Shown one piece after another: positions 32,945 through 60,248 of a DNA stretch of 64,000 bases (the first letter of the stretch is position 1; each line of letters starts with the position of its first letter). Below the pieces are notes generated by a model that saw nothing but the letters and a program-made list of their open reading frames with translations, was not told where the DNA came from and made no database searches. Both the position numbers and the translations under genes were made by a program. The stretch lies in NCBI RefSeq assembly GCF_001856665.1, contig NZ_CP017781.1, positions 1,054,001 to 1,118,000 on the forward strand, written 5' to 3'. This DNA comes from Rhodobacter xanthinilyticus (GTDB lineage: Bacteria; Pseudomonadota; Alphaproteobacteria; Rhodobacterales; Rhodobacteraceae).

Positions 32945-33145
32945 ATGAAACGCCCCAATCCCCTGCCACCCGACCAGATGACCGCCGCCGAGCGCCGCGC
33001 CGAATTGTGCGGGCTGCTCGCCCTCGGGCTGGTGCGTTTGATGCAGCGAGAACGCGGCAAACCTTCTGACGATACTGGAGAAATTCCGGAGGGGATGGGC
33101 CTGCCGTCGAACCTTCTTCACCACCTAATTCATTGTTTTATATGA
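32945..33145 (+). CDS. Small recombinase-cluster protein, 3' end altered by the candidate att site
   Basis: 66 residues, beginning KRPNPLPPDQMTAAERRAEL and continuing with a short helix (LLALGLVRLMQRE). Proteins starting NPLPPDxMTxxERxxE are common as short genes next to DUF2924 and serine-recombinase genes in alphaproteobacteria. The last codons overlap the 17-bp repeat at 33101, and the frame then ends in AT-rich sequence. If the element between the repeats is removed, the frame reads on into the right flank for 10 more codons before a stop. No function is known. Confidence 0.5.
   Translation: MKRPNPLPPDQMTAAERRAELCGLLALGLVRLMQRERGKPSDDTGEIPEGMGLPSNLLHHLIHCFI
33101..33117 (+). repeat. Candidate attL: 17-bp direct repeat
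   Basis: CTGCCGTCGAACCTTCT, identical to 39511-39527. Seven bases upstream there is also a shared CGGAGGG at both sites. The sequence just inside this copy is AT-rich. Confidence 0.6.
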
Positions 33146-33324
33146 CACTTATGGTGACTTAAATGGTCATCTGGTTCAGTCGCGACTGGCAGCGAAACGG
33201 ACGACTGTGGTCCCTATGCTGTCATGCGGAGATCAACGGACCTGTCCGCTGCGGCGCGCTGTGGATTCACGACGGCCATCACCCGTCCCGCGCGTTTTTG
33301 GCCTTCCTGAGAGGGGTGCCAAAA

Positions 33325-34493
33325 TGTAGCCACGTCTCATCGCATTGACATGACGGCAGTTTTTTAAGCGCCGTGGTGGAGCCCGGCAAGATGAATTCGA
33401 CGTTTTCCCTCCTTCTGGTCTTCCTGGCCCGGTTCTTCATGCCGCGGCACAACGCGCAGATGCGGCTGCTCAAGGCCCAGATCCATATTCTCCGGGCCCG
33501 CATCCCGGCGCAAAGGATCATCCTGTCGCCCGCCGAAAAATCCGAGCTGCTGCGCATCGGGGCGGAGTGCGGACACGATATCGACGGGCTCATGGAGGTG
33601 GCTAGGCCCGCGACCTACAAGCGCTGGCTTGCCCAGATGCGTGATGGGCGCGCCTTCAAAGCCGTGGGCAGGCCGCGCCTGACGCAGGAGCTGCGCGACG
33701 TCATCATTCGCATCGGCTCGGAAAATCTCCTCTGGGGCTACAAGCGGATCGCCGGGGAGCTGAAAAAGCTCGGGCTCTATGCCGGCGCCAACTCGGTCAA
33801 GCGCATCCTCGATGAGGCGGGCATCCACCCCAGCCCCGAGAAGCGGAAGAAGAAGCCGGCCCTGCCGTGGACCACCTTCGTCAGGGCACATATGGAAAGC
33901 ATGGTGGCCTGCGACTTCTTCACCAAGACTGTACTTACCGCCCGCGGGCCGCTGACGGCCTATGTGCTGATCTTCATCCATCTCGGCAGCCGCCGCGTGT
34001 TCTGCAGCGCCCCGACCTACGCCCCCGACTCGGCATGGGTGACCCAGCAGGCCCGCAATACGCTGATGTGGTGCGCGGACCAGGAGATCACGCCGGGTTT
34101 CCTGATCCGCGACGCCGACACCAAGTTCAGCGTCAGCTTCGATGCCGTCTGGGCGTCGGAAGCTGCCCGGGTCATCCAGATCCCGCACCGGGCGCCGAAC
34201 GCAAATGCCTTTGCGGAATCCTTCATCGGCACCATCAAGCGCGAATGCCTGGATTTCTTCGTCTGCTTCAGCCGGTCCCAGCTCGATTACATCCTGCGCA
34301 CATGGGTGCGCCATTACAATGTCGAGCGTCCGCATCGGGGGCGGGAGATCGGGAACAATGTGCTTCAGGTCGATTTCAGCCCCGCCCGCGACGGCCCGAT
34401 CCGCCGCCGGCACCAGCTCGGCGGCATCATCACCTCCTACACCCGCGATGCGGCATGATCCGCGGTCTGGAATCTGGTCTCAGCGTGGCCACA
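33325..34493 (+). mobile_element. Insertion sequence with single rve-type transposase
   Basis: Imperfect inverted ends flank one transposase gene: left TGTAGCCACGTCTCA and, read inward from the right, TGTGGCCACGCTGAGA. I find no target duplication, and the right end lies only 18 bases from the next IS, so the flank may have been rearranged. The ends are less certain than the gene. Confidence 0.55.
33391..34458 (+). CDS. Transposase with integrase core domain
   Basis: 355 residues. The N-terminal part carries helix-turn-helix segments (VRRPRLT-like region AVGRPRLTQELRDVIIRIGS and WGYKRIAGELKKLGLYAGA). The DDE core follows: MVACDFFTKTV (Asp), GFLIRDADTKFSVSF (Asp in the second position), and NAFAESFIGTIKRECLDFF (Glu), then the usual HYNVERPHRG. 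This single-ORF layout resembles orphan rve transposases related to IS481/IS3 types. A GTG 18 bases upstream is an alternative start. Confidence 0.85.
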   Translation: MNSTFSLLLVFLARFFMPRHNAQMRLLKAQIHILRARIPAQRIILSPAEKSELLRIGAECGHDIDGLMEVARPATYKRWLAQMRDGRAFKAVGRPRLTQELRDVIIRIGSENLLWGYKRIAGELKKLGLYAGANSVKRILDEAGIHPSPEKRKKKPALPWTTFVRAHMESMVACDFFTKTVLTARGPLTAYVLIFIHLGSRRVFCSAPTYAPDSAWVTQQARNTLMWCADQEITPGFLIRDADTKFSVSFDAVWASEAARVIQIPHRAPNANAFAESFIGTIKRECLDFFVCFSRSQLDYILRTWVRHYNVERPHRGREIGNNVLQVDFSPARDGPIRRRHQLGGIITSYTRDAA

Positions 34494-34579
34494 TGGCGCG
34501 CCCGGAGGTGTTGACCTGCCCCCCGGAAGTTCCCTCGCTGTGATGTAGAGTCTGCCCAACCTGAGAAGGAGCAGACGAC

Positions 34580-34843
34580 ATGAGGAAAAGCCGGTTCACC
34601 GAGGCGCAGATTATCGGGATGATCAAGGAGCAGGAGGCGGGTTTGCCGACTTCCGAGCTTTGCCGGAAGCACGGGTTGAGCCCCGCGACGTTCTACAAGC
34701 TCAAGGCGAAGTATGGCGGGATGGACCTGTCGGACGCCAAGCGGCTGAAGCAGCTCGAGGACGAGAACGCGAAGCTGAAGCGCCTTCTGGCGGATGCGAT
34801 GCTGGACAACGTGGTTCTGAAGGATCTCTTGGGAAAGCCCTGA
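34580..34843 (+). CDS. IS3-family OrfA
   Basis: 87 residues: helix-turn-helix ([20 protein letters not shown] and [19 protein letters not shown]) followed by a leucine zipper ([20 protein letters not shown]). It binds the IS ends. The 3' end overlaps orfB in the -1 frame around GGGAAAGCCC (34831-34840), the probable site of -1 translational frameshifting to make the OrfAB transposase. Confidence 0.93.
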
Positions 34844-35733
34844 CGACACCGGTGCAACGGCGGGAGGCGGTGCTGCGGGCGATGAGGGATCATCCGATCT
34901 CTCAACGCCGGGCCTGCGTCCTGATCGGTGTCGATCCGAAGACGGTGCGGCGTGACAGGCCGCTCGATAACCCGGAAATCCGTGAGGCGATGCACAAGAT
35001 CGTCGAGAAGCGCCGTCGCTTCGGCTACCGGCGCGTGGGTATCCTGCTGGAGCGCAAGGGCATGATCATGAACGAAAAGAAGCTCTACCGCATCTACCGG
35101 GAAGAGGGCCTGTCGGTGCGTCGACGCCGTGGCCGCAAACGGGCGCGCGGCAGCCGAACGCCGATGCCGGTGCCATTGCGCCCGAACCAGCGGTGGTCTT
35201 TGGACTTCCTATCCGACACGTTCGGGGCCTGCCGCAAGTTCCGCATCCTGGCCGTCAACGACGATCGCTGCCGCGAGAACCTTGCCCTGATTGCCGACAC
35301 CAGCATCTCGGGGGCCAGAGTGGCGCGGGAACTCGATGCGCTGGTCAGGATTTACGGCAAACCCGCTTGCATCGTTTCTGACAATGGCACCGAGTTCACC
35401 AGCAAGGCCATTCTGAAATGGGCTAACGAGAACGGCGTCGAATGGCACTACATCGATCCGGGCAAGCCGCAGCAGAACGGATTCATCGAGAGCTTCAACG
35501 GCAGCCTGCGCGACGAATGCCTGAACGAGGAGATCTTCGACAGCCTGGCCGATGCCCGCCGCAAGCTGGCACTCTGGCGCTACGACTACAACAACGTCAG
35601 GCCGCATTCCTCGCTGGCCAACAAGACCCCGGCAGAAGCGCGCCGGGCGCTTGAGCAATCTGAGGGCTCCGCGCCCGGCGCGCTTGCCACACCCGAAACC
35701 AACCAATATCAACCCCAAGGACTCTCGTTATGA
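34840..35733 (+). CDS. IS3-family OrfB (DDE transposase domain)
   Basis: About 297 residues in the -1 frame relative to orfA. It has an HTH_21-type region ([20 protein letters not shown]) and the DDE triad: Asp in WSLDFLSD, Asp in [11 protein letters not shown], Glu in [17 protein letters not shown], then the [11 protein letters not shown] signature. It is complete and probably expressed as the OrfAB fusion by -1 frameshift rather than from its own start. Confidence 0.93.
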
Positions 35734-36018
35734 ACGAGGGACGACCGGGGGGCAGGTCAGCGCCTAGGGGAAGGAAATAGCGCCGTGAAAGCAAGAAACC
35801 CGGGCCTCAACCCCGGTCTGCGGAGGGGGTTCGACAGAGACACACGAAATGTCCCTGCCGAAAATGTCCCCCCGCGTTTCCACAGCGGAGGCCAGCTAAA
35901 ACCCATGGGATCAGGGGCTTATCGCAGGATTGACAGTTCTGGATTATTGTCCCTCGTTCGGCTGGGCCAGAGCCTGCTTGCGATCAAAAAAGCACCGACG
36001 GCAGGGACGACATCAGCC

Positions 36019-36726
36019 TTAAGCGAACGGGGTTGCGAGGACGCGCCTTTCCATCACGTCAAGGAACGCAGGGTCATAGGCTTCATCAACATGGTTGTTG
36101 TTCCATAGGCCCGAGCGGCGGACCTTGACGCGCGTGCAGGCGTGACCCAGCCAGTTGGCCGACGGTGGATCAATCTCAGTCTGCCCCCACCCACTCAGCA
36201 GCGCGATGGCCCCCCGTTCGATGACCCCACGCTCACTTTCGGCCCCCGGATCATCGTCAACGGAAAGCCACAGGACAGGCATCGCCCCGATGGTTCGGCT
36301 GACCAGCCGCTCCAGCTCAATCTCTGCCGCGCGGACAGGGCTTGACGCGTTGCTGCGCTGGGTGTCCCAAGTCGGGCAGGAAAGCCCGTCACGGGCGATC
36401 AGAGCGCTTCCTACCAGCAACCGGAAGATTGACCCCCGGTGATTGCCCCCGCCGCTCCTGAGCGCCCCACGGTGCTGGGACAGCCGGGTCCAGAGCGTGG
36501 TCTTGGAGCCGGGTTTCAGGGCATGGGTTCCGACACGCACAACGCGGGCACCATCGCCCGAACCGCTGCGCTGCTCTCCCAGCTCGAAGAAGAAATACAC
36601 GCCGCGCAGCGGGCAGTCCCGGCTGGCGCTTTCAGGTAGAGTTCGAATAGTGCCTTGCCTGCCTTCAAGCATTTTCAGGATGTCATAGAAACGCATTATG
36701 TCTTCTACCCGAGAACTCATTCCCAT
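36019..36726 (-). CDS. GIY-YIG nuclease-like protein
   Basis: 235 residues. The N-terminal part has GVYFFF at 42-47 and VRVGTHAL at 63-70, spaced like the GIY and YIG strands, then LWTRLSQHRG at 78-87, where GIY-YIG enzymes carry the conserved Arg on the first helix. A conserved-looking tail GLWNNNHVDEAYDP follows near residue 210. I infer a GIY-YIG-related nuclease fold, but the catalytic Tyr and Glu are not certain. It lies 76 bases downstream of the HTH-type gene and integrase on the same strand and could be the cargo or a partner of the element. Codon use is less GC-biased than in core genes. Confidence 0.55.
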   Translation of the reverse strand: MGMSSRVEDIMRFYDILKMLEGRQGTIRTLPESASRDCPLRGVYFFFELGEQRSGSGDGARVVRVGTHALKPGSKTTLWTRLSQHRGALRSGGGNHRGSIFRLLVGSALIARDGLSCPTWDTQRSNASSPVRAAEIELERLVSRTIGAMPVLWLSVDDDPGAESERGVIERGAIALLSGWGQTEIDPPSANWLGHACTRVKVRRSGLWNNNHVDEAYDPAFLDVMERRVLATPFA

Positions 36727-36802
36727 CTTCCCCGTGAGAAGTGCGACACGAGCGCAGCGCGTGGAGCTACTGTCACCATGTCCATTTCTTTATGTCCTTT
36801 GG

Positions 36803-37645
36803 TCAGAATGGTGACTGTATTTCATGATTATTAAGTATCTTATCAATTTGGTCATAAAGGATCGGACCTTTCCCGAGATTTTCTTGTATGAACATGTGAT
36901 AGAACTCGATAGCCACCGGCCAAAATCGGCGCGTGACAGAGATGGCCGGGTAGTGAAAAAACTTCTTTTCGAAGTGTTCGGCGTTGCCGTCGAAGGCATC
37001 GCCTTCAACTTTGGCAACTTCTACTGCCAGGCCCACCCCCGCCGAAAAACCTGACCAGTTCTCCACAACAGTTCGCAGGATGTCAGGCGCAAGGCCTATC
37101 GGCGCGTCCTTGACCATCCCGACGAGCAGGCCGAAATCGTCTCGCTTTTCTTTTCGCCCAGTCGCCTTTCGCCAGTCAGCGACCATGATGCGGGCAAAGT
37201 CCTCGTGCGTCATGTCGGACGGAGCCCCGATCCTGAACAACTTGCGGGTTCTTTTTTCGATGACCTTGGTGATGGTATGAAACGGAGGCTTGCTGACGAT
37301 CCGCTGCACCTGCTTAGAGCTGACACCAACAGCCTGTGCCAAATCTTCGTGGGTGATCCCAGCCCAGTCGCGCCCCTCGGCATGGATCGGGGATAGTTCT
37401 GTCCAGTGCTTGACCTGAGCGTAAATTTTCTTGGTGGTCCCATTCAGGATGTCTGGTTCGGGCTGAGGCGTCTTGCAGAGTTTTTGATACTGTTCGAAGC
37501 CATATGTCGTGAACTTCCCGCTATCGACGGGCGGCGGCACAAGGGGCTTTGCTGGCTCGCCCTCGAAAATTTGCTTCTTGAACTGCTGCTTTGCAACGGC
37601 TGTGAGCTTTTGGAGCCAGCCTTCGGTCGGGGGAACGTCAGCCAT
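36803..37645 (-). CDS. Hypothetical protein with central helix-turn-helix
   Basis: 280 residues from the ATG of MADVPPTEGWLQ. A helix-turn-helix is likely near residues 100-125 (THEDLAQAVGVSSKQVQRIV), followed by a basic patch (IEKRTRKLFRIG). The C-terminal half is helical and aromatic (FHYPAISVTRRFWPVAIEF) and matches nothing I know. The start overlaps the integrase stop codon by 8 bases, so it is translationally coupled to the integrase; candidates are an excision/replication regulator or a cargo gene. The lower GC content marks it as acquired. Confidence 0.6.
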   Translation of the reverse strand: MADVPPTEGWLQKLTAVAKQQFKKQIFEGEPAKPLVPPPVDSGKFTTYGFEQYQKLCKTPQPEPDILNGTTKKIYAQVKHWTELSPIHAEGRDWAGITHEDLAQAVGVSSKQVQRIVSKPPFHTITKVIEKRTRKLFRIGAPSDMTHEDFARIMVADWRKATGRKEKRDDFGLLVGMVKDAPIGLAPDILRTVVENWSGFSAGVGLAVEVAKVEGDAFDGNAEHFEKKFFHYPAISVTRRFWPVAIEFYHMFIQENLGKGPILYDQIDKILNNHEIQSPF

Positions 37646-39398
37646 GCTCGCCCCCCTTATCCCAGCCGAACCCAGTTGCATGGCTGAGGTCGAGGCCGGA
37701 GTATTGCACCTTTTCGATCTCTTCTTTCAGCCGCCCCAGCGAAGCGCCCTTGCCGTAGCCCCAATGGGCCGCATCGTCAGCATGGCCGCAAAGCTGCATG
37801 GCGATGGCATCGGTTACGTTCGCATCGTGCAGGGCATCCACAAAGTTGTGGCGAAAGCTGTGGAACACATGCAGCGGCGTCCTGAACCCCCAGGCATTGC
37901 CGAGGTTGTACCAAAACTTTGACCATGGCTGACTATAGGTGCCGTCACTGCCGAGCTTGAGGTCCGGGAATATCCGCCCTTTGCCCCGGCTGGCCACATA
38001 GTCGAGGAAACCAAGGGCAAGGATCGCCGAATGGATCGGCACGCGGCGATAGCTGGACCCGGTCTTGAGGTTCTTGATCTCCTCCGCCTCTTCGTCCTCC
38101 CATTTCGAGATGTCGAAATAAGTCACGCCGTCTTCTGTGCGGATGTCCGATTTCAAAAGCTGAATAATCTCACCCGACCGCATCCCCGCGTAAAGCGCGA
38201 TCACGGGCACCCAATAGCGACCGTCCTTAAGCCGCAGATCACCCGGCACGCCTGAGTGCTTCAAGCTCCGCCGCCCAGTGTAGATCGGGGTCTTGAAGAT
38301 CAGCTTGAGCTGATCGGTGTCGTAGGGCAGGCGCTTGGGCTTGCCCTTGGGCGGCTTCTTGACAAGCAGCTTGAGGTCAGCACCCGGAGCCTTGGGCAGA
38401 TATTCCTCGGCCACCATCCACGCGACGAACCGCTTGAAGAAATCAAACCGCTTTTTTTGCGTCTCATAGCCCATCTTGGGTAGGTCATGCCCCGCCTTGA
38501 TCGCCGCGACCGGGTCAAGGTCGCGGGTTTCAGGCTTCTTCTGATAGTGCGCCGGTATCTGCCCGATCAGGTCGCGCAACGCCTTCATGTCGGCGGTATC
38601 GAGAAGCGAGGCGGGCTTGTCGAAGTCGATCACGGCGCGGGCCAGATCAAACGTCAGGCGCAGATCGCCAAGGGTCTTTTCCTTGATGTTCTGGGTGGCC
38701 AGTGCCTGCTCGTACTTGATTGCAAGCTCCCGCAGCGGCGGGGCGGGGGCGACCGCTAGGGGCGCTGGCATCGAGGCAGGGGGAACAATCGCCGGGATCA
38801 CCGCGTCCGGCGATGAGGTGACACCTGCGAAAAGCGGATCGGCAATCTGCGTCTGGGCATAATCGCCGTGCAGCTTGGCGAGAAGCAAACGATCCGCCTC
38901 GATCTTCGCCCGCAAGAGCCCCGTCTGGGCACGTTGGAGCGCCTGATAGCGGCTGGTGAAGGTGCTTTGGGGGATGGCCTCCACAAGAGCCGTTGCCTCG
39001 CTCTGGATGTCGCTGGGGAAGTCCCTGACCGCAAGACGCCGCCTGAGGAGGGCGAGCCGGGTTTCCAGCGTGGCGATGCAGTCCTCGACGTCCACCTCCG
39101 CTTCGGGGGCGAAGATGTCGGCAAATTCCTGTCCCCAATCCAGCGCCTCGCGGAAATAGTCGCGGATCGCCTGATCTATCGCCGCATCTTGCCCCTGAGC
39201 CATCCTCCGCGCCTCCGTCACCACGAGATCAACGTGATTGCTGATCGTGCGGCATCGCATGAGAGCCAATGATCGCTCAGCAGTCCTTAAGGAAATCTTA
39301 ACCTCTTTTCGGCCCGCGACATCCCACAAATCCTGTGGAACCGAGGCGCGAAAATAGAAGGTCCGCCCGCGCGTAACCAGCCGTGGTATCGTGGCCAT
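37638..39398 (-). CDS. Tyrosine recombinase/integrase (DUF6538-type N-terminus)
   Basis: 586 residues from the ATG of MATIPRLVTRGRTFYFRASV, an N-terminal segment typical of DUF6538 integrases. A SAM-like core-binding domain lies about 225-330. The catalytic domain has Arg in ALYAGMRSGEIIQLL, the His-x-x-Arg box in HSFRHNF, His in LCGHADDAAHWGYGKG, with the nucleophile Tyr in that last motif. It would integrate and excise DNA at the adjacent direct repeats. The start chosen gives the family N-terminus; an upstream in-frame start exists at 39452. Confidence 0.92.
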   Translation of the reverse strand: MATIPRLVTRGRTFYFRASVPQDLWDVAGRKEVKISLRTAERSLALMRCRTISNHVDLVVTEARRMAQGQDAAIDQAIRDYFREALDWGQEFADIFAPEAEVDVEDCIATLETRLALLRRRLAVRDFPSDIQSEATALVEAIPQSTFTSRYQALQRAQTGLLRAKIEADRLLLAKLHGDYAQTQIADPLFAGVTSSPDAVIPAIVPPASMPAPLAVAPAPPLRELAIKYEQALATQNIKEKTLGDLRLTFDLARAVIDFDKPASLLDTADMKALRDLIGQIPAHYQKKPETRDLDPVAAIKAGHDLPKMGYETQKKRFDFFKRFVAWMVAEEYLPKAPGADLKLLVKKPPKGKPKRLPYDTDQLKLIFKTPIYTGRRSLKHSGVPGDLRLKDGRYWVPVIALYAGMRSGEIIQLLKSDIRTEDGVTYFDISKWEDEEAEEIKNLKTGSSYRRVPIHSAILALGFLDYVASRGKGRIFPDLKLGSDGTYSQPWSKFWYNLGNAWGFRTPLHVFHSFRHNFVDALHDANVTDAIAMQLCGHADDAAHWGYGKGASLGRLKEEIEKVQYSGLDLSHATGFGWDKGGEHG

Positions 39399-39510
39399 CC
39401 TTGCCCTCACTGTACCAGTTGACTGTACCAGGGCGCAGGTATTGACCTTCACGAAAACGGGTATCGTTTAATATCAGCAAGTTAGCGGGGTAATGGCGGA
39501 GGGAACGCGA

Positions 39511-39527
39511 CTGCCGTCGAACCTTCT
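39511..39527 (+). repeat. Candidate attR: 17-bp direct repeat
   Basis: CTGCCGTCGAACCTTCT, second copy. It lies about 110 bases upstream of the integrase start. An inverted ACCTTCTC/GAGAAGGT pair begins inside it and continues to the right (39521 and 39571 regions), which may be part of a recombinase binding site. Confidence 0.6.
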
Positions 39528-39672
39528 CTGGGAAAAACTCCATGAAATCAATGCTTCATGACGTCGTGGGAGAAGGTTGCATCGGCTGCTGAGCCCCGTT
39601 GCGCGAGAACTCTGGTAGTCACGGAACGCCGCATCTTGGGCCAAGGACTTTCGGCAGCAGCGCCGGGACCTG

Positions 39673-40107
39673 TCAGGTGGTTTCCTGCGGGCCATGGTGG
39701 GGCGCCGTGCAGTGGCCGTGATCCCCAAGCACCTCGATCACCCGGCAGTCGCGGATCGCACCCCCGGCGCATTGGACGACCATGCGTTCCAGTTCCGCCT
39801 TCAGGGCAGTCAGCCGGGCAATGCGGTCCTCGACGGCCACCAGTTGGGCCCGCGCGATGGCGTCTGCGGCGGCGCAGGACTGGTCGGGCCGGTCTGACAG
39901 GCTGAGAAGGTCGCGGATCGCATCCAGCGGGAAACCGAGTTCACGGGCATGGCGGACGAACCTCAGCCGGTCTTGCGCCATCTGCCCGTAGAGACGCTGG
40001 TTCCCGGCACTCCGCTCTGCCTCGGGGAGGATACCGATGTCCTCATAGTATCGGATCGTCGGCACCTTGACGCCGGTGGCCTCGCTCAGTTTTCCGATGG
40101 TCAGCAT
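39673..40107 (-). CDS. MerR-family metal-responsive regulator (ZntR/CadR-like)
   Basis: 144 residues from the ATG of MLTIGKLSEATGVK. The MerR winged helix occupies residues 1-70 (VPTIRYYEDIGILPEAERSA), then a dimerisation helix. Metal-site residues are Cys in DQSCAAAD and the C-terminal QCAGGAIRDCRVIE with a further HGHC, which fits Zn/Cd/Pb sensing. It is divergent from a P1B-type ATPase with a MerR-type promoter between them. Confidence 0.92.
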   Translation of the reverse strand: MLTIGKLSEATGVKVPTIRYYEDIGILPEAERSAGNQRLYGQMAQDRLRFVRHARELGFPLDAIRDLLSLSDRPDQSCAAADAIARAQLVAVEDRIARLTALKAELERMVVQCAGGAIRDCRVIEVLGDHGHCTAPHHGPQETT

Positions 40108-40116
40108 GATATGTCC

Positions 40117-40147
40117 TTGCACCTCTAGTGGCTAGAGAGATTACGAA
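40117..40147 (+). promoter_or_regulatory. MerR-type promoter/operator of the metal ATPase
   Basis: A -35 box TTGCAC and a -10-like TACGAA are separated by 19 bases, longer than the usual 17, and the spacer contains the perfect dyad CTCTAG-TGG-CTAGAG. Over-long spacers with a centred dyad are the hallmark of MerR-activated promoters. Confidence 0.85.
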
Positions 40148-40199
40148 GGACTCTGAGAGAATTCAACCGGTGCAGGCAATGCACAGGGAAAGGTATGGA

Positions 40200-42500
40200 A
40201 TGTCAGGGAAATCAGCATCCGAATCGCAGGAATGGACAGTGTCCGGCATGGACTGCGCGTCCTGTGCCGCCAAGATCAGGAGCGCTGTCGAACGGTTGCC
40301 GGGCGTATCGGACGTCAACGTCGCGATCATGTCCGAGAAGCTGACACTGAAGCTGGAGCCCGGCACCACGCCGCGCGACAAGATCGAAGCCGCGGTGGTC
40401 AGCCTTGGCTATGGCATCGGCGCGACCCGGGCCGGCAAGGCCAGGGCCTTCGTGCTGCCGGGCGGAGCAGACGCCGCGAGCGGCAACGACCTTATGGGGC
40501 CTGACAGCACCGAAAATGCAGGGCACGACCACGCCCCGCCCTCTGCCAGCGCCGAGGGCCACAGCTCGCTCCCTGACCACGATCACGGCAGCCCCGACCA
40601 CATCCACGATGACCCGGCCGACCGTGGCAAGCGCTGGTATCAGACGGCCAAGGGGCGACTGGTGATCTTTACCGCGCTGCTGCTGGCGGCGGCCTATGCC
40701 GTGAACCTTGTCGCGCCGCAAGTCGGCCGCTGGGCTTTTGTGGCCGCCTGCCTGATCGGCGTTGCCCCGGTGGCGCAGCGCGCCTTCGCTGCGCTGCGGA
40801 TGGGCATGCCCTTCACCATCGAAAGCCTGATGACCATCGCGGCCATCGGTGCCTTGTTCATCGATGCGGCAGAGGAAGCGGCGCTGGTGGTGTTCCTGTT
40901 CGCCGTGGGCGAGGTGCTGGAGGGCGTGGCTGCTGGCAAGGCCCGCGACGGGATCCGGGCGCTGGCCAATCTGGTGCCCAAGACGGCCCAACTGGTCACG
41001 GGCGAGACCACGCGCGAGGTGCCAGCCGCGAGCCTGTCCGTAGGCCAGACCGTCCTTGTCCGCCCAGGCGACCGGATTCCTGCCGATGGCGAGATCACCG
41101 GAGGCACCTCGGGTGTGGACGAAAGCCCGGTCACCGGCGAAAGCGTGCCCAAAACACGCGGGCCCGGGGATGCGGTTTTTGCGGGTGCGATCAACACCGA
41201 GGCGGCCCTGCGCGTGAAAGTCACCAAAGGCCCGGAAGACAACACCATCGCCCGCATCATCCGGCTGGTCGAGGAGGCCGAGGAGGCCCGCGCGCCGACC
41301 GAGCGCTTCATCGACCGCTTCAGCCGTTGGTACATGCCCGCCATCGTCGCCGTCGCGGCGCTGGTCGTCGTCGTGCCGCCCCTGGCCTTCGGTCAGCCGT
41401 GGGACACCTGGGTTTACCGCGGCTTGGCACTTCTGCTGATCGGCTGCCCCTGCGCGCTGGTCATCTCGGTCCCCGCCTCCATCGCCTCGGCCATGTCGAG
41501 CGGGGCGCGACGCGGGCTCTTGATGAAGGGCGGTGCGGTGATCGAGGCGGCGGCGAAGGTCGATGTCGTGACCTTCGACAAGACCGGGACGCTCACGCAT
41601 GGCCGCCCGCAAGTGACGGATGTGGTGCCGTTCGGGGCCACCACCGAAGCCGAGCTTCTGGCCGTTGCGGCAGGGGTCGAGACGGGGTCGAGCCACCCGC
41701 TGGCCATCGCCATCCTGAACAAGGCAAAGGACGCAGGCATCACTGCGTTGTCGTCGCAGGATGCAAAGGCGCTGATGGGCAAGGGGGTTGTCGCAACCGT
41801 GGACGGCGCTCCCGCATGGGTGGCCTCTCCGCGCTATGCAATGGAGCATGGCGGCCTTGATGGCCTCGGCCTGCGACAGGCCACGGCCTTCGAAGAGGAT
41901 GGCAAGACCGCCGTCGCGGTGTTCCGCGAAAAAACCCCGCTTGGCCTGATCGCCATGCGGGACGAGCCGCGCGCGGATGCCAAGGATGCCGTGCGCCAGT
42001 TGACGGCGATGGGCGTGACCGCGGTCATCCTGACAGGCGACAACCCGCGCACCGCCGCCGCGATTGCCGGAAACCTGGGGCTCAAGTTCGAGGCCGACAT
42101 GATGCCCGAAGACAAGCTCGCCTATATCCGCGAGATCGGCACCCAGGGCGGCGTGATGATGATCGGCGACGGCATCAATGACGCGCCCGCGCTGAAACAG
42201 GCGAGCGTCGGCGTGGCGATGGGATCGGGCACAGACGTGGCGCTGGAAACCGCCGATGCGGCGATCCTGCGCGACCGGGTGACCGACGTCCCCGCGACGA
42301 TCCGCCTGTCGCGAGCCGCGATGGCCAACATCCGCCAGAACGTGACCATCGCATTGGGGCTGAAAGCCGTGTTTCTGGTGACCTCGGTTTTCGGTCTGAC
42401 CGGCCTGTGGATTGCGATCCTGGCCGATACCGGGGCGACAGTGCTTGTGACCCTGAACGCCCTGCGCCTGCTTCGGTTCAACCCTGAGCGTGAGAGCTGA
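40200..42500 (+). CDS. Zn/Cd/Pb-transporting P1B-type ATPase
   Basis: 766 residues, inner membrane. An N-terminal heavy-metal-associated domain carries GMDCASC (Cys19, Cys22); a His/Asp-rich stretch follows near 110-145 (DHDHGSPDHIHDDPADRG). The transport motif is CPC at 416-418, the phosphorylation site DKTGTLTHG begins at Asp460, and the hinge is GDGINDAPAL. This is the ZntA/CadA subgroup that pumps Zn2+, Cd2+ and Pb2+ out of the cytosol. I start at 40200, where GGGAAAGG lies 6 bases upstream; an earlier frame start at 40128 would fall inside the promoter. Confidence 0.94.
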   Translation: MSGKSASESQEWTVSGMDCASCAAKIRSAVERLPGVSDVNVAIMSEKLTLKLEPGTTPRDKIEAAVVSLGYGIGATRAGKARAFVLPGGADAASGNDLMGPDSTENAGHDHAPPSASAEGHSSLPDHDHGSPDHIHDDPADRGKRWYQTAKGRLVIFTALLLAAAYAVNLVAPQVGRWAFVAACLIGVAPVAQRAFAALRMGMPFTIESLMTIAAIGALFIDAAEEAALVVFLFAVGEVLEGVAAGKARDGIRALANLVPKTAQLVTGETTREVPAASLSVGQTVLVRPGDRIPADGEITGGTSGVDESPVTGESVPKTRGPGDAVFAGAINTEAALRVKVTKGPEDNTIARIIRLVEEAEEARAPTERFIDRFSRWYMPAIVAVAALVVVVPPLAFGQPWDTWVYRGLALLLIGCPCALVISVPASIASAMSSGARRGLLMKGGAVIEAAAKVDVVTFDKTGTLTHGRPQVTDVVPFGATTEAELLAVAAGVETGSSHPLAIAILNKAKDAGITALSSQDAKALMGKGVVATVDGAPAWVASPRYAMEHGGLDGLGLRQATAFEEDGKTAVAVFREKTPLGLIAMRDEPRADAKDAVRQLTAMGVTAVILTGDNPRTAAAIAGNLGLKFEADMMPEDKLAYIREIGTQGGVMMIGDGINDAPALKQASVGVAMGSGTDVALETADAAILRDRVTDVPATIRLSRAAMANIRQNVTIALGLKAVFLVTSVFGLTGLWIAILADTGATVLVTLNALRLLRFNPERES

Positions 42501-42504
42501 CATC

Positions 42505-42810
42505 ATGATCTCAGGTTTTGGCTGGGCCGCGTTGGCCCTTCTGTTCGGCTATCTGGCTCTGTTCTTCTGGGGTAGTGCGCTGGCGGCGCAAGCGGCGGGT
42601 CGGCCTGTCTGGCTGTTTTCGCGCGCCACGGGACGCGACCGTCTGGCTGCGATGGGCTTCCGTCTCGCCTTCGTACTTGCCTTTTTCGGGCCACTCCTCT
42701 GGCTCGCCATGCCTGCCCTGCACAAGGTCGATCCCCTCTGGACCGAGGGGGGTGCCGTGGTCCTCGGCCTGATCGGAGTATTTGTCGCCGGACTTGGCGC
42801 GATGGTCGCC
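42505..42810 (+). pseudogene. Truncated membrane protein (isoprenylcysteine methyltransferase-like), cut by IS21
   Basis: About 102 codons remain, with three membrane segments (WAALALLFGYLALFFWGSAL, LAFVLAFFGPLLWLAMPAL and VVLGLIGVFVAGLGAMVAW). Genes of this kind after ZntA/CadA ATPases are usually annotated as isoprenylcysteine carboxyl methyltransferase family proteins; the catalytic C-terminal half is missing. The IS21 copy begins at 42811, and the lost half is not on its other side, so sequence was deleted as well. Confidence 0.65.
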
Positions 42811-42929
42811 TGGAAACGGCGGTGCAAAATTAGGCCACGGTAGCGGCGGGATCGTCTCGCTGCGGGCGGAGTAAAATCCTGCCACTTTTCCCTTCTTGCG
42901 GCAGCAGGGAGGGTGGGGAGATTTATACC

Positions 42930-44417
42930 GTGGAACTTTACAAGAAGGTTCGCTTGGCGTGTGCCGAGGGCATGAGCGCGCGGGCGGCGGCGAAGCATTT
43001 CAACATTTCGCGCGGGACGGTTGAGAAGATGTTGGCCTTCTCGGTGCCGCCTGGCTACCGGCGGGACAAGCCGATCAGGCGGCCGAAGCTGGACGGGTTC
43101 ACCGAGTTCATTGACGCCTGGCTTGAAGCCGACAAGGCGGTGCATCGCAAGCAGCGTCATACGGCCAAGCGGATATGGGAACGGCTTCAGGCCGAGCATG
43201 GCTTCACCGGCGGCTATACGATCGTCAAGGATTACGTGCGTGAGCGTGAGCGGCGGACACGGGAGATGTTCGTGCCACTGGCCCATCCGCCGGGCCATGC
43301 TCAGGCCGATTTTGGCGAAGCGGTCGTCGTCATCGCCGGTGTCGAGCAGAAGGCGCATTTCTTTGTCATCGACCTGCCGCACAGCGATGCCTATTTCGTC
43401 CGGGCCTATCCGGCGGCGACGGCGGAGGCCTGGATAGACGGGCATGTCCGCGCCTTTGCCTTCTTCGGCGGGGTGCCGCAGTCGGTGCTCTACGATAACG
43501 ACCGCTGCCTGGTCTCGAAGATCCAGCCAGATGGCACGCGCATCCGCGCCACGCTGTTCAGCGGCTTGCAGTCGCATTACCTGTTTCGGGATCGCTATGG
43601 TCGGCCCGGGAAGGGGAACGACAAGGGCGCTGTCGAGGGGATGGTCGGCTACGCCCGCCGCAACCACATGGTGCCGATCCCCCACTTTGCCAGTTGGGAC
43701 GCCTTCAACGCCGACCTTGAAGGGCAGTGCTGCGCACGCCTCACGCGCATTCTTCGGGGTCACAAGGAGACGATCGGCGAGAGGCTGCAGCGCGATCTGG
43801 CGGCGATGCGCCCATTGCCTACTGCCCCGTTCGACGCCTGCGACCAAGCGAGCGGCAGGGTCAGCTCGCAGTCGCTCGTGCGCTATGACACCAACGATTA
43901 CTCGGTCCCGGTCGCCTATGGCCATCAGGATGTCTGGATCCGCGGCTATGTCGATGAGGTCGTGATCGGCTGTCGCGGGGAGGTGATCGCCCGACACCCG
44001 CGCTGTTACGATCGCGAGGACATGATCTTCGACCCGGTTCACTACCTCCCGCTGATCGAGCGCAAGATCAATGCCTTGGACCAGGCTGCGCCTCTGGCGG
44101 AATGGGACCTGCCCGAAGAGTTCCAGACTTTGCGCCGCCTGATGGAGGCGCGCATGCTCAAGATGGGGCGCCGCGAGTATGTGCAGGTGCTGCGGCTGCT
44201 TGAGACCTTTGGCATGGATGACCTGCATGCCGCCGTGAAGAAGGCCCTGAAGCTGGGCGCGGTCGGCTTTGACGCCGTGAAGCACCTCGTGCTTTGCCAG
44301 GTCGAGAAGCGCCCCCCAAGGCTTGATCTCGATGTCTACCCCTACCTGCCGCGGGCGAACGTCGAGACGACGCGTGCGGCCAGCTACATGGCCTTGATGT
44401 CGGAGGCGGCGGAATGA
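42930..44417 (+). CDS. istA: IstA, IS21-family transposase (copy 2)
   Basis: 495 residues, GTG start, identical in protein sequence to the copy at 20294-21781. The same HTH and DDE motifs are intact. Overlaps istB by four bases. Confidence 0.96.
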   Translation: MELYKKVRLACAEGMSARAAAKHFNISRGTVEKMLAFSVPPGYRRDKPIRRPKLDGFTEFIDAWLEADKAVHRKQRHTAKRIWERLQAEHGFTGGYTIVKDYVRERERRTREMFVPLAHPPGHAQADFGEAVVVIAGVEQKAHFFVIDLPHSDAYFVRAYPAATAEAWIDGHVRAFAFFGGVPQSVLYDNDRCLVSKIQPDGTRIRATLFSGLQSHYLFRDRYGRPGKGNDKGAVEGMVGYARRNHMVPIPHFASWDAFNADLEGQCCARLTRILRGHKETIGERLQRDLAAMRPLPTAPFDACDQASGRVSSQSLVRYDTNDYSVPVAYGHQDVWIRGYVDEVVIGCRGEVIARHPRCYDREDMIFDPVHYLPLIERKINALDQAAPLAEWDLPEEFQTLRRLMEARMLKMGRREYVQVLRLLETFGMDDLHAAVKKALKLGAVGFDAVKHLVLCQVEKRPPRLDLDVYPYLPRANVETTRAASYMALMSEAAE

Positions 44418-45178
44418 GCGAGGCTCCGAAGATCCTGCTTGCCCACCATCTGAAGACGCTGAAGCTGCCCACCTTCCTGCGGGAACACGAGAAGGTTGCG
44501 CGCCAATGCGCCGCCGAAGGGTTGGACCATGTCCAATTCCTGTCGCGCCTCGTTGAACTGGAACTCATTGACCGCGAGCGGCGGATGGTCGAGCGCCGCA
44601 TCAAGGCTGCGAAGTTCCCGGCCACCAAAAGCCTCGACAGCTTCGACTTCAAGGCGATCCCGAAGCTGAACAAGATGCAGGTGCTGGAACTGGCGCGCTG
44701 CGAATGGATCGAACGGCGTGAGAACGTGATCGCCCTTGGCCCCAGCGGAACCGGCAAGACCCACATTGCCTTGGGCCTCGGGTTGGCGGCCTGCCAGAAG
44801 GGCATGTCTGTCAGCTTCACCACCGCCGCCGCGCTGGTCAACGAGCTGATGGAGGCGCGAGACGAACGTCGGCTGCTGCGCGTCCAGAAGCAGATGGCTG
44901 CCGTCAAGCTGCTGATCATCGACGAGCTCGGGTTCGTGCCCCTGTCAAAGACCGGCGCCGAGCTGCTTTTTGAGATGATCTCCCAGCGCTACGAGCGCGG
45001 TGCCACGCTGATCACCAGCAATCTGCCCTTCGATGAATGGACCGAGACCTTCGGCACCGAGCGGCTGACCGGCGCGCTCCTCGACCGGTTGACCCACCAC
45101 GTCAACATCCTCGAGATGAACGGCGAAAGCTATCGCCTCGCGCAAAGTCGCGCGCGCAAGACCGGCGACAACACCTGA
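44414..45178 (+). CDS. istB: IstB, IS21-family ATP-binding helper protein (copy 2)
   Basis: 254 residues, identical in protein sequence to the copy at 19533-20297, with intact Walker A and Walker B motifs. Confidence 0.96.
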   Translation: MSEAPKILLAHHLKTLKLPTFLREHEKVARQCAAEGLDHVQFLSRLVELELIDRERRMVERRIKAAKFPATKSLDSFDFKAIPKLNKMQVLELARCEWIERRENVIALGPSGTGKTHIALGLGLAACQKGMSVSFTTAAALVNELMEARDERRLLRVQKQMAAVKLLIIDELGFVPLSKTGAELLFEMISQRYERGATLITSNLPFDEWTETFGTERLTGALLDRLTHHVNILEMNGESYRLAQSRARKTGDNT

Positions 45179-45358
45179 TCCAAAGTATCAGACTTGGACC
45201 TGACGGTCCAAGGCGGCCAGTCACCCGCAAGCTATATGGAGAGCGCGGCTGACTGGCCGCCGCCCATCAGCCGCGTCTCGCGCAAACCCAAAGTGGCCCA
45301 ATTTTGCGCCGCCCCGTGGCCCAATTTTACTCCGCCGTTGACACTTAGATAGGTAAAA

Positions 45359-45448
45359 TGGCGGAGACGAAGGGATTCGAACCCTCGAGACGGTTTCCCG
45401 CCTGCACCCTTAGCAGGGGTGTGCCTTCGACCACTCGGCCACGTCTCC
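45359..45448 (-). tRNA. tRNA-Ser(GCT), CCA encoded
   Basis: Read on the minus strand the gene starts GGAGACGTGGCCGAGTGGTC and ends TTCGAATCCC then TTCGTCTCCG plus an encoded CCA. The acceptor stem GGAGACG pairs with CGTCTCC, discriminator G. The anticodon loop is CTGCTAA in the stem CACCC/GGGTG, giving anticodon GCT (serine AGC/AGT codons). A long variable arm, typical of serine tRNAs, is present. The 3' end faces the IS21 copy 15 bases away; I find no second copy of this 3' end elsewhere in the window. Confidence 0.95.
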
Positions 45449-60019: not shown

Positions 60020-60248
60020 TTGCGGAGCGCAAGAGGCTGGCCGGACAGAGCCGGGCCGCAGTCTGCCGCGCTGTCGGGTGCGGGTCAGGGTGATCGATAG
60101 CCAAGGGGAGCATTGCCGTGGCCGCACAGTCGCCGGCACTTGGTGTGGAGAACGTTCGATCCCAGACCCATCCCCTCCGCCACTCCCCCCCTGACACGCG
60201 CCGGCCCGGAGCCGCTCTCCCTCGGGGCGCGCGAGCGTTTCCGGCCGC
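60020..60248. other. Non-coding boundary between Moco cluster and fru operon
   Basis: Between the mog stop and the LacI gene I see no convincing gene. A GTG-started frame at 60118 runs through this gap but is antisense to the LacI gene for most of its length. The gap is a plausible right edge of an acquired tor-Moco block, but no repeat marks it. Confidence 0.4.

Follow-up and report, generated by a model that had tools for sequence, protein, structure and literature searches.

A small genomic island with a DUF6538-type tyrosine integrase, probably the second in a stack behind tRNA-Ser(GCT)

What kind of mobile DNA is the integrase-carrying stretch at about positions 33087–39493 of the window (the whole 64-kb stretch of DNA analysed here), and into what did it insert? 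The stretch is broken into by insertion sequences, and an earlier note had described it as an integrative element, with a tyrosine integrase at its right end, that had entered the 3' end of a small gene at 32945. Our analysis upholds the element and its integrase and corrects its anchor and target, from the small gene to tRNA-Ser(GCT). We consider it quite probable that 33087–39493 is a small genomic island with a DUF6538-type tyrosine integrase, lying second in a stack behind tRNA-Ser(GCT), and very probable that it adds one more case to a familiar class of mobile DNA, the tRNA-gene island in a tandem stack.

The gene content is as first described: three minus-strand genes encode the integrase (37638–39452; 604 aa, DUF6538 plus Phage_integrase domains), a protein with a helix-turn-helix (HTH)-like region (36803–37681; 292 aa) and a GIY-YIG-like protein (36019–36726; 235 aa), so that two unfamiliar genes indeed adjoin the integrase, the start of the HTH gene overlapping the integrase end by 44 bp. 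The lower G+C content also held, at 0.58–0.63 per kilobase in the element versus 0.60–0.78 elsewhere in the window. As expected of a tRNA-targeting island, the integrase gene is full length and encodes R425, HSFRH at 531 and, in GHADDAAHWGY, a tyrosine at 556, which we take to be the catalytic residues of a tyrosine integrase. Both insertion sequences had been regarded as later arrivals. This is clear for the plus-strand IS3-family element (ISPfe1-like, 34512–35759), which matches ISPfe1-like elements at 93% and carries inverted ends TGACCTGCCCCCCGG, with no flanking target duplication seen by eye; it is only probable for the second plus-strand unit (33325–34493), because its 361-aa transposase (rve domain, 33373–34458) occurs as a single copy in the genome and its inverted ends, TGTAGCCACG/TGTGGCCACG by eye, are short and imperfect. 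Two transposase units, a truncated left flank and a neighbouring IS21-type element might together suggest a chance assembly of insertion sequences and remnants that no longer moves; this is improbable in view of the full-length integrase with its expected residues and of an integrase end that fits the architecture of its relatives.

The direct repeats were confirmed: CTGCCGTCGAACCTTCT is exact at 33101 and 39511 and occurs exactly twice in the window and twice in the whole genome, where 0.01 copies would be expected by chance in the window with up to two mismatches allowed. A CGGAGGG block accompanies both copies, and with this block included 27 of 31 bases agree, all differences falling within the 7 bases that separate CGGAGGG from the 17-mer. 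Exact 17-bp repeats at both ends, together with joined letters that by eye keep an open frame, are what one would expect of a self-contained element in the 3' end of the small gene, with the 17-mer as duplicated exchange core; that model predicts an intact gene ending in ..LPSNLLWEKLHEINAS. The predicted read-through to ..NAS is in frame by its letters, but it is not the natural end of the gene. When the query was extended to 33117, the five longest related stretches stopped at 33082–33086, ahead of the 17-mer, and shorter ones stopped earlier. Five of six relatives of the small gene (two of the six from one genome, and the query itself cut at 33086) have in common a C-terminal pattern, LH(Y/S)P.D..RHAT, from which the window departs at 33087; the sixth is a remoter relative. 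The 17-mer, moreover, recurs within a dispersed motif beside tRNA-Ser flanks. We therefore rejected the small gene as insertion target, a reading that now seems very improbable. Since the relatives stop ahead of the repeat and have a different C-terminus, the left junction joins an end motif (33087–33117, minus strand), made up of the 17-bp arm and a tRNA-Ser-like part that stops short at ..CCCTCCG, to a broken gene. This truncated small gene (32945–33086, plus strand) belongs to a DUF2924/serine-recombinase cluster in the left flank, and the junction represents either a deletion scar or an off-target insertion. Excision of the element in its present form is doubtful, as its far end lacks CCA and runs into the truncated gene.

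The relatives of the integrase point to the tRNA gene. A scan of genome contigs yielded six loci out of 55 candidate stretches, and a search of 295 genomes of the family at E 1e-80 returned, besides the window's own copy, G092 and G295 (L141), the former being the same contig as L005, so that seven distinct relatives were available. In five of the seven (L003, L004, L005, L007 and L141, of which L007 and L141 contain only part of the integrase gene), ARAGORN places tRNA-Ser(GCT) directly upstream of the integrase. A sixth (L008; 210 residues matched) has tRNA-Ser(GCT) 3.4 kb upstream, and its integrase is directly adjoined by a second copy of the core (2 mismatches in 16), a tandem arrangement as in the window; the seventh (L006) is cut off, beginning inside the integrase gene. 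The arm between core and start codon, represented in the window by 39453–39493 (minus strand; ..GCTAACTTGCTGATATTAAACGATAC..), is common to the window and the integrase relatives at tRNA-Ser(GCT). The far end is visible in only two relatives: in L004 an exact 18-bp copy of the tRNA 3' end stands at either boundary, with 8.1 kb between the two, and L006 ends in an exact 16-bp copy. Relatives bounded by other repeats had been named beforehand as evidence against the element as first drawn, and these two do end in tRNA 3'-end copies instead of the 17-mer, an outcome that goes partly against the 17-bp reading; the lack of a 17-mer at their far ends also counts against the island model. The proposed conserved triad of integrase, HTH and GIY genes was not borne out, as neither HTH nor GIY relatives occur at the six integrase loci, at L140 or at L141; this, too, is an argument against the island model.

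The window has its own tRNA-Ser(GCT) gene (45359–45448, minus strand; ARAGORN), six kilobases from the element on the integrase side, and we presume it to be the anchor of the stack, given the integrase relatives at the same tRNA. Between the two lie a metal-ATPase region and an IS21-type element, which we presume, from open reading frames and ATPase relatives, to form a tRNA-proximal island 1 (39494–45358, minus strand) comprising a MerR-type gene (39673–40122, named from its open reading frame), a metal P-type ATPase for which relatives were found (40128–42500) and istA/istB-like genes (42930–45178, likewise named from their reading frames); no integrase was recognised in island 1 by eye. 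The segment just left of the tRNA (45230–45343) recurs, among the matches listed, in at least 20 other places of the genome at 99–100%, as the end of an insertion sequence would behave. The IS21-type element (42930–45343) reaches to within about 15 bp of the 3' end of tRNA-Ser, and one of the listed recurrences of its end lies elsewhere in the window. At the junction of the two islands, 39494–39527 (minus strand) consists of the 17-bp arm (39511–39527) and a tRNA-Ser-like 3' end ..CCCTCCGCCA; the sequence that tRNA-Ser(GCT) shares with the element's ends amounts to only about CTCCG(CCAT).

The segment 33087–33117 matched other genomes independently of its left neighbour, as did 39487–39534, and alignment of such ends gave a 37-bp motif whose 7-base middle has two common variants. 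The 17-bp repeat is part of this motif, which was found at 30 further places in the loci fetched; at a threshold of at least 24 of 30 specified bases there are 33 distinct places, three of them in the window. The third window copy, a weaker one (60146–60182, minus strand), lies between LacI-type-like regulator and molybdenum-cofactor-like genes, as named by eye. At 14 of the 33 places, none of them in the window, the motif is followed after ..CCGCCA by a known tRNA-Ser 3' flank, the alignment starting within 3 bases of the ..CCGCCA boundary in 12 of the 14. These matches use five of the 21 flanks in our set, and as the five are partly alike, they represent fewer than 14 independent cases; the remaining 19 copies, including the window's three, had no recognised tRNA flank among the 21. 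The opposite side of the motif bore a tRNA-Ser flank in 0 of 30 cases, and 17 of 1040 random control pieces matched, these coming from loci that carry such a flank. Several motif copies are bordered by a sequence that, at L046, forms the 3' flank of a tRNA-Ser(GGA) gene; this tRNA gene is separate from the motif copies of that locus. That the motif might itself be an RNA gene (tRNA, tmRNA or an Rfam family) was rejected: six loci gave no Rfam match, and none of the loci scanned has a tRNA where the motif lies.

The order tRNA-Ser, body and end motif that the island model predicts was found twice: in G215, tRNA-Ser(CGA) is followed by a unit of 1.9 kb encoding a Phage_Mu_F protein, then by the motif, 14 bp past a stop, and in G190, tRNA-Ser(GGA) is followed by 5.1 kb and then by the motif. 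In our reading, the motif marks where islands inserted at tRNA-Ser genes have their far ends. The 17-bp repeat is probably not the exchange core, which is likely to be the shorter block CGGAGGG, i.e., CCCTCCG(CCA). No recombinase has been assigned to most of the motif-bearing islands, which speaks against the island model; three integrase queries, a weak test, detected no integrase in the G141, G181, G215 and G190 stretches, and G181 has no motif at the threshold applied although the comparison with 39487–39534 listed a match there. A motif scan of fifteen tRNA-Ser neighbourhoods of the genus gave only three chance-like matches, at 21/30, and no empty site came to light, which likewise counts against the island model. 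Literature searches for tRNA-Ser islands with Paracoccus or Rhodobacter turned up nothing on the motif by title or abstract start. Two carriers are plasmids of Aminobacter and Peteryoungia and the other motif genomes belong to the window's family, which, together with Paracoccus-type matches, would make the motif alphaproteobacterial in its spread.

Several motif copies have neighbours worth recording. In G141 (L144–L149, 3060000–3179999), three copies in one orientation span 97 kb; a serine recombinase is encoded between two of these, and ARAGORN detected no tRNA there. In Aminobacter, the copy at L035:18680 shares sequence with the end of a serine-recombinase fragment. Phage_Mu_F-type proteins, together with small downstream genes, adjoin the motif in L151:15996–17832 (G215), L043:8081–10366, L059 and L061 (by domain match in L151 and L043, by resemblance judged by eye for L061 and for the small gene in L059), and such units are possibly toxin and immunity cassettes at tRNA-Ser. 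Counting the longest open frame that ends within 400 bp of the motif (open frames, not proven genes), 8 of 36 copies had a frame ending 4–30 bp before it (L151, L021, L022, L030, L036, L058, L059 and L063, with L021/L022 and L058/L063 as close pairs), and 28 had not.

The serine recombinases bear on the left junction. The motif might once have lain next to a module of small gene, DUF2924 gene and serine recombinase, a deletion then having fused the small gene to it, and it may be a serine recombinase, not the tyrosine integrase, that mobilises the motif islands, as in the Dehalococcoides ssrA islands. The small gene is cut at the motif, and the Aminobacter overlap and the G141 recombinase fit as well; the G010 recombinase, however, ends ordinarily, with no motif in the 20 kb fetched, and the window's element encodes a tyrosine integrase whose adjoining arm recurs in the integrase relatives. 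We regard this course of events as possible, though on the doubtful side, and prefer an island moved by its own tyrosine integrase.

On this preferred island model, the integrase would use as its strand-exchange site either the tRNA-Ser(GCT) 3' end or the tRNA-Ser-like end sites left by other islands. Reading from the tRNA, the order would be tRNA-Ser, island 1 with the metal ATPase, an end site, island 2 (integrase, HTH gene and an orphan PDC-M57B gene), a further end site and the remnant of the serine-recombinase cluster, a stack that would have arisen by successive insertion. The model predicts an empty site composed of the small-gene remnant, CGGAGGG, one 17-mer and CTGGGAAAAACTCC, and a circular form with the joint TGGCGGAGGG plus the arm.

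The GIY-YIG-like gene is less novel than had been supposed, as its product matches the PADLOC profile PDC-M57B (E 3.3e-78, residues 6–229), one half of the two-gene candidate defence system PDC-M57; what stands is its place beside the integrase. Compared with the PADLOC pair, the window shares the M57B match, whereas M57A (DUF6884 type) has no match within the 64 kb, be it as adjacent or as fused partner. M57A was present at 14 of 19 other M57B loci, seven of these 14 having supplied seeds of the two profiles. Solved structures matching the protein by sequence were not found, and literature searches returned no paper on PDC-M57, nor on DUF6538. We infer that the protein may act as nuclease and defence cargo. 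A lone candidate for phage defence, lacking the partner that most such genes have, is thereby located on a mobile island. Elsewhere, PDC-M57 genes sit among phage-head-like genes, as judged by eye, in three IMG/VR loci (L117, L118 and L124), and in L125 the two proteins are fused.

The HTH protein matched only weakly (best E 0.011 in PHROGs, 0.023 in Pfam). Its two relatives both lie behind tyrosine integrases, and none was found in plasmids and viral contigs; the single-sequence structure model was unusable (pLDDT 39.7), and five matches of its alignment to solved structures (E 0.086–0.84) were taken as chance. The gene deserves attention for following different tyrosine integrases, and its product might control the integrase or its direction.

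Tentatively, the motif could be assigned to an undescribed, widespread alphaproteobacterial family of tRNA-Ser-anchored gene cassettes, short and often integrase-less, with an end site that mimics the tRNA-Ser 3' end, stacked and shuffled in trans, somewhat like integron cassettes, the end site sometimes lying just after the stop of the last gene. If so, the window would hold two units, one of them with an integrase that could mobilise such cassettes, and different integrases would have the HTH gene as a common partner. The motif could in any case help to map tRNA-Ser islands of this bacterial family, including integrase-less ones, which Islander would miss because, according to PMC4383910, it requires an integrase gene.

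Among known systems, islands of the Islander class have a tyrosine integrase beside a tRNA gene and a displaced tRNA 3' fragment at the far end, and tandem arrays of them are known (PMC4383910). The window resembles these in its integrase-at-tRNA layout, apparent displaced 3' fragment and presumed tandem order, but differs in that the likeness of its junction fragments to tRNA-Ser(GCT) is limited to about CTCCGCCAT and that its far end is cut short. The Dehalococcoides ssrA islands are stacked, each ending in a 3' RNA-gene fragment after a short conserved 15-bp motif, and 15 of 31 have no integration module (PMC3146451). Their integration module has a serine recombinase and their target is a tmRNA gene, whereas the window has tRNA-Ser and an integrase of the tyrosine family; they are the nearest parallel to the motif-plus-fragment ends seen here.
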